Assembly (NCBI GenBank): GCA_934502625.1
Contig: CAKSUQ010000003.1
Coordinates: 1 to 64,000, forward strand
Source of the DNA: an uncultured Gemmiger sp.
GTDB lineage: Bacteria; Bacillota; Clostridia; Oscillospirales; Ruminococcaceae
Reading direction: 5' to 3'
DNA length: 64,000 nt
In this document: piece by piece, positions 21,581 through 36,750 of the stretch
Layout: each line of letters starts with the position of its first letter
Position numbering within the stretch: position 1 is the first letter of the stretch
The notes under the pieces: generated by a model
The model's input: only the letters and a program-made list of their open reading frames with translations
Database searches by the model: none
Told to the model about the DNA's origin: nothing
Made by a program: the position numbers and the translations under genes

Positions 21581-21603
21581 AAAAGCGTTATGACTGTGGG
21601 TCA

Positions 21604-21700
21604 AACTTCCTACGCCGGCATTACCCGGATCAGGTTCAAGGCGACCCGAAACTGCGGTTTGTTTCGATCTCAGCCGAGGATGCCCCTCAGCGCCCCTGTT
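21604..21700 (-). ncRNA. TPP riboswitch (THI element)
   Basis: The minus strand carries the conserved core: GGGGCGCTGAGG, CGGCTGAGAT, then after a variable stem CTTGAACCTGATCC and GGGTAATGCCGGCGTAGGAA. Placed just upstream of thiT, it senses thiamine diphosphate. Confidence 0.95.
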
Positions 21701-21795
21701 TTTATGTCCATCTTCCATTATACACGCCGTCATGCGTTTGTCAAGCGCCATCCTTCCACACCTTCAGTAAGTATGAGGTGGCGAAAGCCTGACGC

Positions 21796-26972: not shown

Positions 26973-27671
26973 TTACTTCTGCACGCGCTTATCGCACTTG
27001 ATGGCGAGCTTCGTGCCGACGGTCTGCAAGATCTGCACCAGCACGACCAGTAGCGCGGTGGCGAAGAACTCCAACACCACGTTGAAGCGGTAATAGCCGT
27101 AGTTGATGGCAATTTTGCCCAAGCCGCCGCCGCCGATGATACCGGCCATTGCGCCGTAGCCCATGATGGTCGTCGCGGCAATCGTCACGTTCGCCACAAG
27201 GCTCGGCATACTCTCCGGCACCATGACCTTCGTGATGATCTGCAAAGGCGTTGCGCCCATGCTCTGCGCGGCCTCGATAACGCCCGCGTCGACCTCACGC
27301 ATGCTTGTCTCGACCAGACGCGAAACAAACGGGAAGGAGGCAATCACCAGCGGCACGATGGACGCCACAGTGCCGATGGACGTGCCCACGATGGCGCGGG
27401 ACAGCGGAATGACGATGATCATCAAAATCAGGAACGGCACGCTGCGCAGCAGGTTCACAAGCCCGTTCAGCAATGCCATCAGCCAGCGGGGCAGGGGGCG
27501 CACGCCGCCCTGCTCGCCCGTAACAAGGCAAACACCCAGCGGCAGGCCGATGACCAGCGCCAGCAGCGTCGCGACGACCGTAGACCAGATGGTCTCCCAC
27601 GTTTCAAACGGAATGGTGGGCAAAATCTGCAAGAACGTCTGCCAGTCCTTGCCTGCAAAAAACTCTGCCAT
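26973..27671 (-). CDS. metI: Methionine ABC transporter permease
   Basis: A 232-residue MetI-type permease with about five transmembrane helices. The start LPTIPFETWETIWSTVVATLLALVIGLPLG and the EAA loop region (VIEAAQSMGATPLQIITKVMVPE, near residues 135-157) match MetI. It forms the channel for D/L-methionine import with MetN and MetQ. The ATG overlaps the metN stop by one base. It is the last gene of metQ-metN-metI. No clear terminator follows on the minus strand. Confidence 0.95.
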   Translation of the reverse strand: MAEFFAGKDWQTFLQILPTIPFETWETIWSTVVATLLALVIGLPLGVCLVTGEQGGVRPLPRWLMALLNGLVNLLRSVPFLILMIIVIPLSRAIVGTSIGTVASIVPLVIASFPFVSRLVETSMREVDAGVIEAAQSMGATPLQIITKVMVPESMPSLVANVTIAATTIMGYGAMAGIIGGGGLGKIAINYGYYRFNVVLEFFATALLVVLVQILQTVGTKLAIKCDKRVQK

Positions 27672-28669
27672 CAGCCATCCACCTCCTCATAGGTAATACC
27701 GGGATAATTTTTGATGTAGTCCAGCGCGGCCTGCGCCTTGTCGCCATCGGGCAGCGCCAGCAGCATGCTGCCCAGCGTCTGACCGTTCACGATGCGGGTA
27801 TCGGCCGCCATGATGGACACCAGTGCGCCGCACTCGATGGCAAGGCTTGCCACAAGGGGCTTGTCGGTCGTCTGGGTGCCGCCGAACGCCACGCGCACCA
27901 GCTTGTGGCCGGGCAGCGCCTCGGCCTGCGGAGCGCCCGCAGGGTAGACGAGGCGGCGCGCCGCCTTGGACGTCGGGTGGCTGAAGATGGCCTGCACCTC
28001 ACCCTCCTCGACGACGGTGCCGTTATCCAAGATGGCAACGCGGTTGCAGACCTCCTCGACGACGCTCATCTGGTGGGTGATGATGACGACCGTGATGCCC
28101 AGCTCGCGGTTGATTTTCTGGATCAGCTGCAAAATGGCATGGGTCGTGTTGGGGTCAAGGGCGCTCGTCGCCTCGTCGCACAGCAGCACCTTCGGGTCGG
28201 TCGCCAGCGCGCGGGCGATGGCGATGCGCTGCTTCTGGCCGCCGGACAGCTGCGCGGGGTAGGCGTCCGCCTTGTCGGGCAGGCCGACCAGCTCCAGCAG
28301 CTCGCGGGCGCGCGCCTCGGCCTTGTCCTTGGGCACCTTCGCCAGCTCCATCGGGAACATGATATTGCGCAGACAGGTGCGCTGCATCAGCAGATTGAAC
28401 TGCTGAAAGATCATTGTGATCTCGCGGCGGGCAGCGCGCAGGTCAGCCGCATTCAGCTCCTGCATCTGCTTGCCGTTGACGATGACCTTGCCCTCGTCGG
28501 GACGTTCCAGCATGTTGATGCAGCGCACCAACGTAGATTTACCGGCGCCCGACATGCCGATGATGCCATAGACATCGCCGTCTTGGATCGTCAGGTTAAT
28601 GTCGTTCAGCGCGACGACCGTGCCGCCCTGCGTCGAAAAGCGCTTTGTAAGGTGTTGCAGTTCGATCAT
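27671..28669 (-). CDS. metN: Methionine ABC transporter ATP-binding protein
   Basis: A 332-residue ATPase: Walker A GMSGAGKSTLVRCINMLERPDEG (near 38), signature LSGGQKQRIAIARALA, Walker B KVLLCDEATSALDP and an H-loop THQMSV. A C-terminal NIL/ACT-like domain (about 255-332) is present, which in E. coli MetN binds methionine and shuts down transport. GAGGGAGAA precedes the ATG. A family A repeat and a separate hairpin (28691-28722) lie between it and metQ, so metNI expression may differ from metQ. Confidence 0.96.
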   Translation of the reverse strand: MIELQHLTKRFSTQGGTVVALNDINLTIQDGDVYGIIGMSGAGKSTLVRCINMLERPDEGKVIVNGKQMQELNAADLRAARREITMIFQQFNLLMQRTCLRNIMFPMELAKVPKDKAEARARELLELVGLPDKADAYPAQLSGGQKQRIAIARALATDPKVLLCDEATSALDPNTTHAILQLIQKINRELGITVVIITHQMSVVEEVCNRVAILDNGTVVEEGEVQAIFSHPTSKAARRLVYPAGAPQAEALPGHKLVRVAFGGTQTTDKPLVASLAIECGALVSIMAADTRIVNGQTLGSMLLALPDGDKAQAALDYIKNYPGITYEEVDG

Positions 28670-28890: not shown

Positions 28891-29769
28891 TTAGAAGATA
28901 GGCACAACCGCGCCGTCGTAGGTCTCGTTGATGTAATCCTTGACCTTGTCGCTGGTCAGGGCGGCGTACAGAGCCTGAATGGCGGGGTCGTTCTCGTTGC
29001 CTTCCTTCACGACCAGCACATTGGCGTAGGCCTGGGCAGCCTCAGAGGTTGCATCCTCGGTGGCAAGGGCGTCCTTACCAACGGAGAGGCCAGCCTTTAT
29101 CGCGTAGTTGCCGTTGATGACGGCGAAATCAACGTCCTGCACGGTGCGGGGCAGCTGGGCAGCCTCAATCTCCTGAATCTTCAGGTTATGGGGGTTCTCG
29201 GTGATGTCGTTAATGGTCGCGGTCAGGCCGGCGCCGTCACGGACGGTAATCAGACCCTGGGCAGCCAGCAGCTGCAGGGCGCGCGCCTCGTTGGTGGTGT
29301 CGTTGGGAACGGCGATGGTAGCGCCGTCAGCGACGTTCTCCAGATCGCTGCTCTTGCCCGGATAGATGCCGAACGGCTCGTAGTGGACAGCGCCGACGCT
29401 GACGAGGTGGGTGCCGTTCTCCTCGTTGAAGCTGTCGAGGTAGGGGGTGTGCTGGAAGTAGTTGGCGTCGACCTCGCCGCTCTCGGTGACAAGGTTAGGC
29501 TGGACATAGTCGTCGAACTCGACGACCTCAAGGTCGATGCCCTGCTCGGCGAGAATCTCCTTGGCCACATTCAGGATCTCGGCGTGGGGCGTGGGGGAGG
29601 CGGCGACCTTCAGGGTCGTACCGGCCAGCTCGCTGGTCTCAGCAGTGGATTCAGCTTCGGAAGAAGCTGCCTCAGAGGAGGCGGCCTCAGTGGTACTAGC
29701 GGAAGAGCCGCAGGCGGCCAAGCTCAGAGCCAGAGTAGCGGCGAGCGTTGCAGAAATAAGTTTTTTCAT
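28891..29769 (-). CDS. metQ: Methionine-binding lipoprotein
   Basis: A 292-residue NlpA/MetQ-family substrate-binding lipoprotein. Signal peptide with lipobox SLAAC (Cys20), then a Ser/Ala/Glu-rich linker, then the binding domain: LKVAASPTPHAEILNVAKEIL, VEFDDYVQPNLVTESGEVDANYFQHTPYLD and AVINGNYAIKAGL. It captures methionine outside the cell for MetNI. GGAG precedes the start. Upstream lies a Met/Cys-rich leader peptide and a terminator under a strong promoter; transcription into metQ would require read-through. Confidence 0.96.
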   Translation of the reverse strand: MKKLISATLAATLALSLAACGSSASTTEAASSEAASSEAESTAETSELAGTTLKVAASPTPHAEILNVAKEILAEQGIDLEVVEFDDYVQPNLVTESGEVDANYFQHTPYLDSFNEENGTHLVSVGAVHYEPFGIYPGKSSDLENVADGATIAVPNDTTNEARALQLLAAQGLITVRDGAGLTATINDITENPHNLKIQEIEAAQLPRTVQDVDFAVINGNYAIKAGLSVGKDALATEDATSEAAQAYANVLVVKEGNENDPAIQALYAALTSDKVKDYINETYDGAVVPIF

Positions 29770-29901
29770 GATAGTGTCTCCTTTATCATTGTCAGGTGTG
29801 TTGTATTTGAATGCGTGAAAATTCCCTCAAACCTCGTTCACATTCGCACACCGGGCTGCTTGTAGATGGAACCTCTTTCCATAGTCACAAACTTCCTTTC
29901 C

Positions 29902-29937
29902 AAACAAAAGCGGGATGTCGGCTTTCCGGCATCCCGC
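29902..29937 (-). terminator. Attenuator terminator of metQNI
   Basis: On the minus strand GCGGGATGCCGG (29937-29926) pairs with CCGACATCCCGC (29921-29910) with an AAAG loop, then TTTTGTTT. It ends about 130 nt before metQ and starts 12 nt after the leader-peptide stop codon. Confidence 0.88.
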
Positions 29938-29949
29938 TGCAAGTTTTCG

Positions 29950-30045
29950 TTACGCGCTGTAATTTGCGCACAAGAAAGCTGGCACAGGACGCTTACGCAT
30001 CATGCACATGCACATCATCATCATGCCGGAACACGCTGCAGTCAT
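29950..30045 (-). CDS. Met/Cys-rich leader peptide of metQNI
   Basis: A 31-codon frame inside the metQ leader: ATG at 30045, stop TAA at 29950. It begins MTAACSG, followed by MMMMCMCMM (residues 8-16) and ends RKRPVPAFLCANYSA. Seven of the nine residues 8-16 are Met and two are Cys, which is far outside chance. A ribosome binding site (GAAAGGGG) lies 9 bases before the ATG; a promoter lies about 60 bp upstream; an intrinsic terminator begins 12 nt after the stop. This is the layout of translation-coupled attenuation, where shortage of charged tRNA-Met or tRNA-Cys would stall the ribosome. Such control of methionine uptake in Clostridia is not known to me. Confidence 0.8.
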   Translation of the reverse strand: MTAACSGMMMMCMCMMRKRPVPAFLCANYSA

Positions 30046-30103
30046 TGGTCTGTACCCCTTTCTCTCGTTGTTTGGTCGGCGTCATTTGCTTTCCATGGCT
30101 CAC

Positions 30104-30132
30104 AGTATACGCCGGTGAACGCAATCTGTCAA
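30104..30132 (-). promoter_or_regulatory. Promoter of leader peptide and metQNI
   Basis: Minus strand TTGACA (30132-30127), 17-bp spacer, TATACT (30109-30104). Transcription would start near 30097. Confidence 0.85.
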
Positions 30133-30259: not shown

Positions 30260-30691
30260 ATGAAATTCTCGACCCGTGACCGTTACGCCCTGCGCCTGAT
30301 GGTTGAACTGGCCAACCGCCCGAACGACCTGATCCCGCTGAAGGAGATCAGCGACAAGCAGCGCATCAGCTTAAAATATCTGGAACAGATCGTCACCCCC
30401 TTGGCAAAGGCGGGGCTTGTGTCCAGCGTGCGCGGCGCGCAGGGCGGCTACCGGCTGGCACGCCCGGCCGGGGAGATCACCTCCGGCGAGATCCTGCGCG
30501 CGGTGGAGGGCGAGCTAACGGCCATTCCGTGCCTTGCCTCGACGGTGGACTGCCCCCATCGCAGCCAGTGCCACACCCTCGACTTCTGGTCGGGGCTGAA
30601 TGATCTTATCAATAAATATGTGGATGGCATCACCTTGGAGCAGCTGCGAACGATGCCGCAGGTGCCGGAAGTGGGGGAGAGCGGAGAGTAA
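30260..30691 (+). CDS. Rrf2-family transcriptional regulator (IscR-like cysteines)
   Basis: A 143-residue Rrf2 protein: MKFSTRDRYALRLMVELA, the helix-turn-helix ISLKYLEQIVTPLAKAGLVSSVRGAQGGYRLARP (about 36-69). Three cysteines, Cys91, Cys98 and Cys104, stand in the spacing that holds a 2Fe-2S cluster in IscR and its relatives, so it may sense iron-sulfur status or cysteine, rather than being a CymR without cluster. It is divergent from the methionine leader/metQNI, which raises the possibility that it also acts on sulfur metabolism. AAAGGGAG precedes the ATG. Confidence 0.9.
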   Translation: MKFSTRDRYALRLMVELANRPNDLIPLKEISDKQRISLKYLEQIVTPLAKAGLVSSVRGAQGGYRLARPAGEITSGEILRAVEGELTAIPCLASTVDCPHRSQCHTLDFWSGLNDLINKYVDGITLEQLRTMPQVPEVGESGE

Positions 30692-36479: not shown

Positions 36480-36750
36480 CAAATCCAGATAATGCTTGGA
36501 TGGGAAGTTAGTAACGGTTTCGCCCCCTACAGAGAACTGCCGGTCGGTGCAAGGCAGCAGGGAAGTGCAGACCGCGAACTGATCCCGGAGCAGACCGCCC
36601 GAAACAACCAGTAGGGCGATACGGGCGCACCCGTTACAGTGCCGGACTTTGTTGGAAGTCCATGAGTGGGGGCATTGTCCCAATAAGAGTGGTACCGCAG
36701 AGCTATACACAGGCTTTGTCTCTTGGAATACAGGGGGCAAAGCCTGTTTG
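36480..36750 (+). ncRNA. T-box leader of ilvBNCD, probable Leu specifier
   Basis: The long stem I base is GTAACGG (36510-36516) pairing with CCGTTAC near 36630, and the T-box sequence is AGAGTGGTACCGCAGAG (36687-36703). The specifier is most simply CTG (36579-36581) in the GAA-CTG-ATCCCGGAGC context, i.e. leucine; ATC (isoleucine) one frame over is less likely. The terminator is ACAGGCTTTG (36709-36718) with CAAAGCCTGT (36738-36747), then a T-rich tract. Uncharged tRNA binding would allow read-through into ilvB. Confidence 0.92.

Follow-up and report, generated by a model that had tools for sequence, protein, structure and literature searches.

A candidate leader-peptide attenuator with methionine and cysteine codons ahead of the methionine-uptake genes metQNI in Gemmiger

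The window, i.e. the whole 64,000-nucleotide stretch of DNA analysed here, is Gemmiger formicilis-like judging from its sequence, with a MetQ that shares 88% and 90% identity (best segment) with two Gemmiger formicilis loci (L001, L002). On its minus strand, to which all features described here belong unless stated otherwise, lie in order a promoter, a Shine-Dalgarno (SD) sequence, a leader ORF, an intrinsic terminator, a second mini-ORF and the genes metQ, metN and metI. The promoter, TTGACA-N17-TATACT (30104..30132), has 11 of 12 matches to the consensus of the scan tool. An SD-like AGAAAGGGG (30055..30063), read from the sequence, precedes a leader ORF of 31 codons plus stop (MTAACSGMMMMCMCMMRKRPVPAFLCANYSA; 29950..30045), whose ATG is at 30045 and whose stop ends at 29950. 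Residues 8-16, MMMMCMCMM (29998..30024), constitute the putative control codons, as indicated by translation and by conservation in relatives. The terminator (29902..29938) was found by folding and was missed by a simple terminator scan, which listed a weaker site on the plus strand instead; its stem runs from 29938 to 29909 around the loop AAAG, followed by a T-rich tail to 29902, and begins 11-12 nt past the leader stop. All of these parts lie where an initial annotation of this DNA had placed them, including the terminator at about 12 nt from the stop, although the stem, described there as perfect, has one mismatch (C29929 opposite A29918). Downstream are metQ (28891..29769), encoding the methionine-binding lipoprotein (PF03180), metN (27671..28669), encoding an ATPase with a NIL domain (PF00005 and PF09383; TIGR02314, MetN, is the best model but below its cut-off), and metI (26973..27671), encoding the permease (PF00528; the MetI model is best, again below cut-off). 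An Rrf2-family regulator gene (30260-30691, plus strand) is divergent from metQNI, with CymR/IscR-like scores that are all below the NCBIfam equivalog cut-offs. Elsewhere, the window contains a TPP riboswitch (21590-21707) and, on the plus strand, a T-box leader (36488-36726) immediately 5' of an ORF, indicating that the same genome employs a T-box for another amino-acid operon; we take the ORF to be IlvB-like.

Across all six frames of the window, the run MMMMCMCMM is the sole site with at least seven Met/Cys per nine residues, and order-1 Markov simulations (5 x 64 kb) produced none. Conservation is stronger evidence for the run than this estimate of chance. Exactly one match to ATGATGTGYATGTRY was found in 31 of the 35 genomes of Gemmiger, the genus of the genome of L001, and none was found with the reversed control pattern. 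With the leader of G311, which has the variant run MMMRMC, the Met-codon run is kept in 32 of 35 genomes, the point on which the initial annotation had said its proposal could fail. A MetQ motif follows within 1.5 kb in 31 of these 32 loci, the remaining locus being cut by a contig end. Among the best 80 of 367 MetQ loci, an ORF with five or more Met/Cys in nine residues lies no more than 700 bases upstream of the match in 19; by name, 17 are Gemmiger, one is Oscillospiraceae (L010) and one is Subdoligranulum (L011). There are 29 distinct leaders including that of the window (the leader of G325, L114, with GMMCMC, and L131 and L141 stand outside this set, and L003 is without upstream sequence). 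The other 28 carry MMMCMC or MMMCMY, Tyr replacing the second Cys in six distinct leaders. The first Cys codon is TGC in every leader except one, the N-terminal part of the peptide is variable, and the promoter hexamers and their N17 spacing are identical in 29 of 29. Because methionine has a single codon, the conservation of ATG alone cannot tell a constraint on the peptide from one on the RNA. The Rfam scan of the locus gave no match above cut-off, in agreement with the earlier statement that neither an S-box nor a T-box is present; the best match at a lax threshold was the Moco model (21.6 bits, cut-off 36). S-box and T-box elements were likewise absent from the seven Gemmiger-type loci scanned with Rfam, and a search for plasmid copies of the leader gave no match.

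The terminator, i.e. regions 3 and 4 of the leader, is present in all 28 leaders with sequence; the 29th, L101, stops at the contig end before the terminator and was left out of every structure count. The predicted antiterminator strand, region 2 (29984..29997), sits just after the run and was recognised by its register and covariation in relatives, where, with numbering that starts at the second Met codon in the run of the window, bases 24-37 oppose the initial 14 bases of the 5' arm of the terminator. In this 2:3 register 321 of 392 cells pair over the 28 leaders, against 134/336, 103/364, 179/392 and 136/392 when slid by -2, -1, +1 and +2, and a register as good arose in 3 of 5000 permutations of the terminators among leaders. 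In the window the paired stretches are 29984-29992 (GCGTCCTGT) and 29929-29937 (GCGGGATGC), and the antiterminator of the window's clade has 9 bp (GCGUCCUGU with GCGGGAUGC, -14.8 kcal/mol). When leaders identical to others over the 64 joined bases are omitted (L001, L006, L017, L023, L024, L026, L109), 21 distinct rows remain, in which 83.0% of the 2:3 cells pair and covariation is 0.190 against 0.132 in shuffles that ignore the kinship of the leaders (0 of 500 as high). A Leu-codon wobble base and its partner in the terminator occur as UA (8), GC (7), UG (4), CG (1) and GU (1). Only one 2:3 pair is changed on both sides (2.4 in shuffles), and there are 12 further pair types (11.9 in shuffles). 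The support from covariation is modest and is carried mainly by one base pair. The 3' part of the control codons can in turn form a helix with the distal side of region 2 (29978..30011), a 1:2 hairpin recognised by its register in relatives, which suggests the layout 1:2, 2:3, 3:4. In this register 350 of 420 cells pair over 28 leaders (105-193 when slid), and on the 21 rows covariation is 0.141 against 0.115 shuffled (3 of 500), with 2 double-change pairs against 1.8; the case for this hairpin is weaker, as in the window 12 of 15 positions pair. The features expected of an attenuator are present together, namely an SD and an ORF with codons for the end product, a terminator, a conserved antiterminator strand and a codon-containing hairpin that hides this strand. 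The predicted pairings match the tripartite arrangement of classical attenuators, and all 28 leaders checked keep the register.

We folded the 28 leaders with a ribosome-sized mask and with the terminator 3' arm not yet transcribed. The mean probability of the 2:3 pairing was 0.72 with the ribosome stalled in the run against 0.19 with the ribosome at the stop codon, and 26 of 28 leaders differed in that direction; for the window the values were 0.35-0.75 and 0.00, respectively. In the ribosome-free fold the mean was 0.65, and the stalled value exceeded the free one in just 10 of 28 leaders. The 2:3 pairing is favoured without a ribosome, so an untranslated leader might read through too. We propose that the leader is very probably a ribosome-mediated attenuator of metQNI, which would gauge how much charged tRNA-Met, and probably also tRNA-Cys, is available. 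From this arrangement we infer translation, stalling, the molecules sensed (the tRNA-Met signal) and the direction of regulation as follows. When methionine (or cysteine) is scarce, the ribosome would stall within MMMMCMCMM and block the 1:2 hairpin; region 2 would then be available to the 5' arm of the terminator, and RNA polymerase would continue into metQNI. When methionine is ample, the ribosome would reach the stop codon, and the 3:4 terminator helix would form ahead of metQ.

The initial annotation had also proposed a leader-peptide attenuator on metQNI, and this part of its reading is supported and is conserved in relatives. Its antiterminator strand was a different one: TTCCGGCAT (30023..30031), placed before the run, so that only a late stall would give read-through. 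TTCCGGCAT is indeed the exact reverse complement of ATGCCGGAA (29932-29924) in the terminator, and in the window this perfect 9-nt pairing (-15.8 kcal/mol) is slightly better than the post-run one. It is strong in L002 (-15.1) and L006 (-13.8) and similar in L007, L008, L009 and L096, and in the ribosome-free fold of the window, pairing of the 5' arm with the pre-run side has a probability of 0.39. However, the complementarity is patchy in relatives: in L001 (G. formicilis ATCC 27749) it is eroded, with several G-U pairs, and the strongest pairing open to the pre-run segment lies elsewhere and is weaker (-10.4). When the terminators were permuted among the 28 leaders, 1658 of 5000 permutations were as good as the true pre-run combination, against 92 of 5000 for the post-run segment. 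With the ribosome stalled on the window leader, pairing of region 3 with the pre-run strand reached 0.01-0.13, against 0.35-0.75 for 2:3; L002 is an exception, with 0.69 at two stall positions. As a general mechanism the pre-run antiterminator is therefore without a genus-wide signal and was rejected, and we consider it highly improbable that it is the switch. The classical layout with a post-run strand needs no late stall.

To look beyond metQ we used a covariance model built from joined segments (A2, R1). The model found a second leader copy before metG (tRNA-synt_1g) in G062, and inspection of the regions upstream of metG (30 loci, three of them without N-terminus) revealed paralogous leaders in seven Gemmiger genomes (G062, G309, G314, G316, G326, G327, G328). 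These have short runs of 2-4 Met/Cys codons and keep CTTCGGC against GCCGAA in six of seven, and none of their antiterminators is singly significant against shuffles (0.057-0.327). In the family genome G092, metF (L122, PF02219) is preceded by an MMMCMCGMMM leader and a terminator, the antiterminator again not being significant against shuffles (0.163). The Gemmiger-type model matched one of the 394 genomes of the order sample (E <= 0.001, strict filters), namely that of the query, and 9 of the 197 genomes of the family sample (E <= 0.01). The weak family-sample hits L121, L123, L124 and L126 were set aside, as no Met-run ORF was seen; eight weak second matches (L131, L134-L140) were not metG by motif, and L131 proved to be the metQ leader of G311. 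A looser scan covered up to 3.5 kb upstream of the 61 MetQ loci without a Met/Cys ORF among the best 80 of 367, and yielded 9 hits in the forward direction, compared with 3 on the reverse strand. In eight of the nine (the ninth is L069) a terminator lies behind the leader, which precedes metN in L035, L038, L063 and L077, and a gene fusing a solute-binding domain to MetQ in L030, L033, L040 and L045; Pfam confirmed the fusion of L030 and L045 and the metN of L035, L063 and L077. For six of these eight antiterminators, fewer than 1% of 300 shuffles were as good, and those of L063 and L077 were not significant (0.737 and 0.690). The fusions (L030 3131-4801, L033 3101-4750, L040, L045 3161-4780) join a family-3 solute-binding domain, presumably cystine-like, to MetQ, and their leaders are rich in Cys besides Met.

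These leaders bear on the possibility that the element acts as RNA only, as a protein-binding site or a new riboswitch, with the Met/Cys run a by-product of repeated ATG/TGC bases. The strong base-level conservation within and just 3' of the run would fit such an element, as would the folding of 2:3 in untranslated RNA. However, the leaders of L030, L033, L035 and L045 preserve a Met/Cys run although their bases and frames differ, the extra ATG of the window is in frame, and Rfam is without a match, which makes an RNA-only element distinctly improbable. Control of the promoter by the divergent Rrf2-family regulator, with the leader playing a minor part, would draw on the position of that gene and on the invariant promoter, but an Rrf2 start was seen upstream of only 14 of 29 leaders (by a regular expression, so that others may be missed), whereas every one of the 28 leaders checked retains the parts of the attenuator; we give this explanation a very slight chance. 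That the ORF yields a working Met/Cys-rich peptide, e.g. a metal binder, on the strength of an inferred resemblance of MMMCMC to thiol/thioether metal ligands, has next to no probability, given that a terminator and antiterminator accompany the ORF, that its N-terminal part varies and that the downstream genes are methionine genes.

Between the terminator and metQ lies a second conserved mini-ORF, MERGSIYKQPGVRM (29838..29882), which the initial annotation had overlooked and which was recognised by peptide and pattern scans in relatives. A codon-free scan for the peptide [QK]PGx[RK]M found it in 18 of the 19 leader-bearing loci and in the window; a further match elsewhere in L017 was put down to chance, and the mini-ORF is missing in L011, L104 and L110. 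A pattern requiring CGAATGTG matched 27 of 35 genomes, against one match of the reversed control, and gave 38 distinct rows, 28 before metQ, 8 before metG and 2 in other genes (L174, L201). The QPGxRM matches of these last two, of L087, of L091 and of L090, where the match is inside a long ORF, were judged to be chance; we assume the long ORF to be RpoB-like. All 36 rows before metQ or metG have 14 codons from the start to the final Met. Apart from a few exceptions they fit the consensus M-x-[TRY]-[GS]-P-x-[CY]-[RK]-Q-P-G-[VIF]-R-M, followed by either UGA or a Cys codon; of 33 distinct sequences, 18 carry UGA at codon 15 and 15 carry Cys. The conserved codons Q9, P10, G11 and V12 vary at the third base; CGA at codon 13 is a requirement of the pattern behind the row table, yet is also found in all 18 peptide-scan loci. 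Since UGA and Cys alternate, selenocysteine was considered, and it was dropped: in L006 a Cys codon is directly followed by UGA, and the sequence after the UGA is, by eye, not visibly conserved. The eight metG genes with the mini-ORF (L142-L145, L159, L166, L203 and L204, in genomes G004, G281, G304, G305, G307, G311, G315 and G318) and the seven with an attenuator paralogue are separate sets, and a terminator-like hairpin between mini-ORF and metG was seen in one of the eight (weak, L142). A ribosome at codon 14 had no consistent effect on exposure of the metQ or metG SD in the 36 rows. The fixed length and the conserved C-terminus suggest that the peptide may act inside the ribosome. Tentatively, and at somewhat less than an even chance, it could be a new methionine-responsive peptide (an arrest peptide or a uORF with a hungry Met14 codon) that would act after the attenuator on metQ and alone on metG, so that two ribosome-based methionine sensors would be stacked in one leader; the mini-ORF points to a second layer, apparently not described before.

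Leader-peptide attenuation is already known, the classical cases being the trp, his, leu, thr and phe operons of enterobacteria. The Gemmiger leader resembles these in its control codons within a leader ORF, its 1:2, 2:3 and 3:4 helices and its terminator before the operon; it differs from them in mixing Met and Cys codons, in preceding a transport operon, in belonging to Clostridia and in the mini-ORF after the terminator. The S-box and the T-box sense SAM and uncharged tRNA, respectively, both directly. These elements (RF00162 and RF00230) are without a match at the Gemmiger locus and occur with the same transporter genes at other loci: in the Rfam scan, which covered 26 of the 61 MetQ loci without a leader hit, an S-box lies approximately 2 kb upstream of metQ in L034, L036, L046 and L068, and a T-box in L031, L037 and L042, with the order metN-metI-metQ behind the element in the two loci read (L036, L037). 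The presence of S-box and T-box elements on the same genes in related loci suggests that direct sensing by RNA may have given way to sensing by the ribosome. A single S-box per genome is found in 32 of the 35 Gemmiger genomes; in the one genome inspected (G001; L205, G001:C57) it precedes a metK-like ORF that we take to be metK. An S-box at metK together with Met-codon leaders at the uptake genes and at some metG would separate the sensing of SAM from that of Met-tRNA, and the Cys-richer leaders of the solute-binding-domain::MetQ fusions offer a testable match of codon to substrate.

Our search of the open-access literature, most subscription journals being outside its scope, found no description of a methionine leader in Clostridia. 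Leader-peptide attenuation is also not tied to Proteobacteria, as the initial annotation had it; this was too narrow, since His leader peptides that replace the T-box of hisS/hisZ genes have been reported in Bacilli (PMC2965389, in the portion available). These are leader peptides of Firmicutes as is that of Gemmiger, but serve histidine and hisS/hisZ. In Campylobacter jejuni, Met-codon leaders have been suggested for MetL and CJsORF19 (MMYQMR before Cj0772c, a methionine-transport binding protein; PMC11955535). They share with Gemmiger a Met-codon leader proposed for a methionine-uptake gene, but belong to a different phylum and are unrelated in sequence, and the available sections of PMC11955535 describe no alternative RNA structure. 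Cys codons precede sulphur-amino-acid genes in uORFC-8-2, a Cys-codon leader before cysS in Rhodobacterales (PMC8632094), and in mycobacterial leaders that are without an intrinsic terminator (PMC1262725); as far as the accessible parts of these reports go, both are like the Gemmiger leader in this respect, but contain Cys only and belong to Proteobacteria and Actinobacteria, respectively. A Met/Cys leader on metQNI in Clostridia is apparently new, and it provides a comparative case for attenuation by methionine (plus cysteine) codons in this class.
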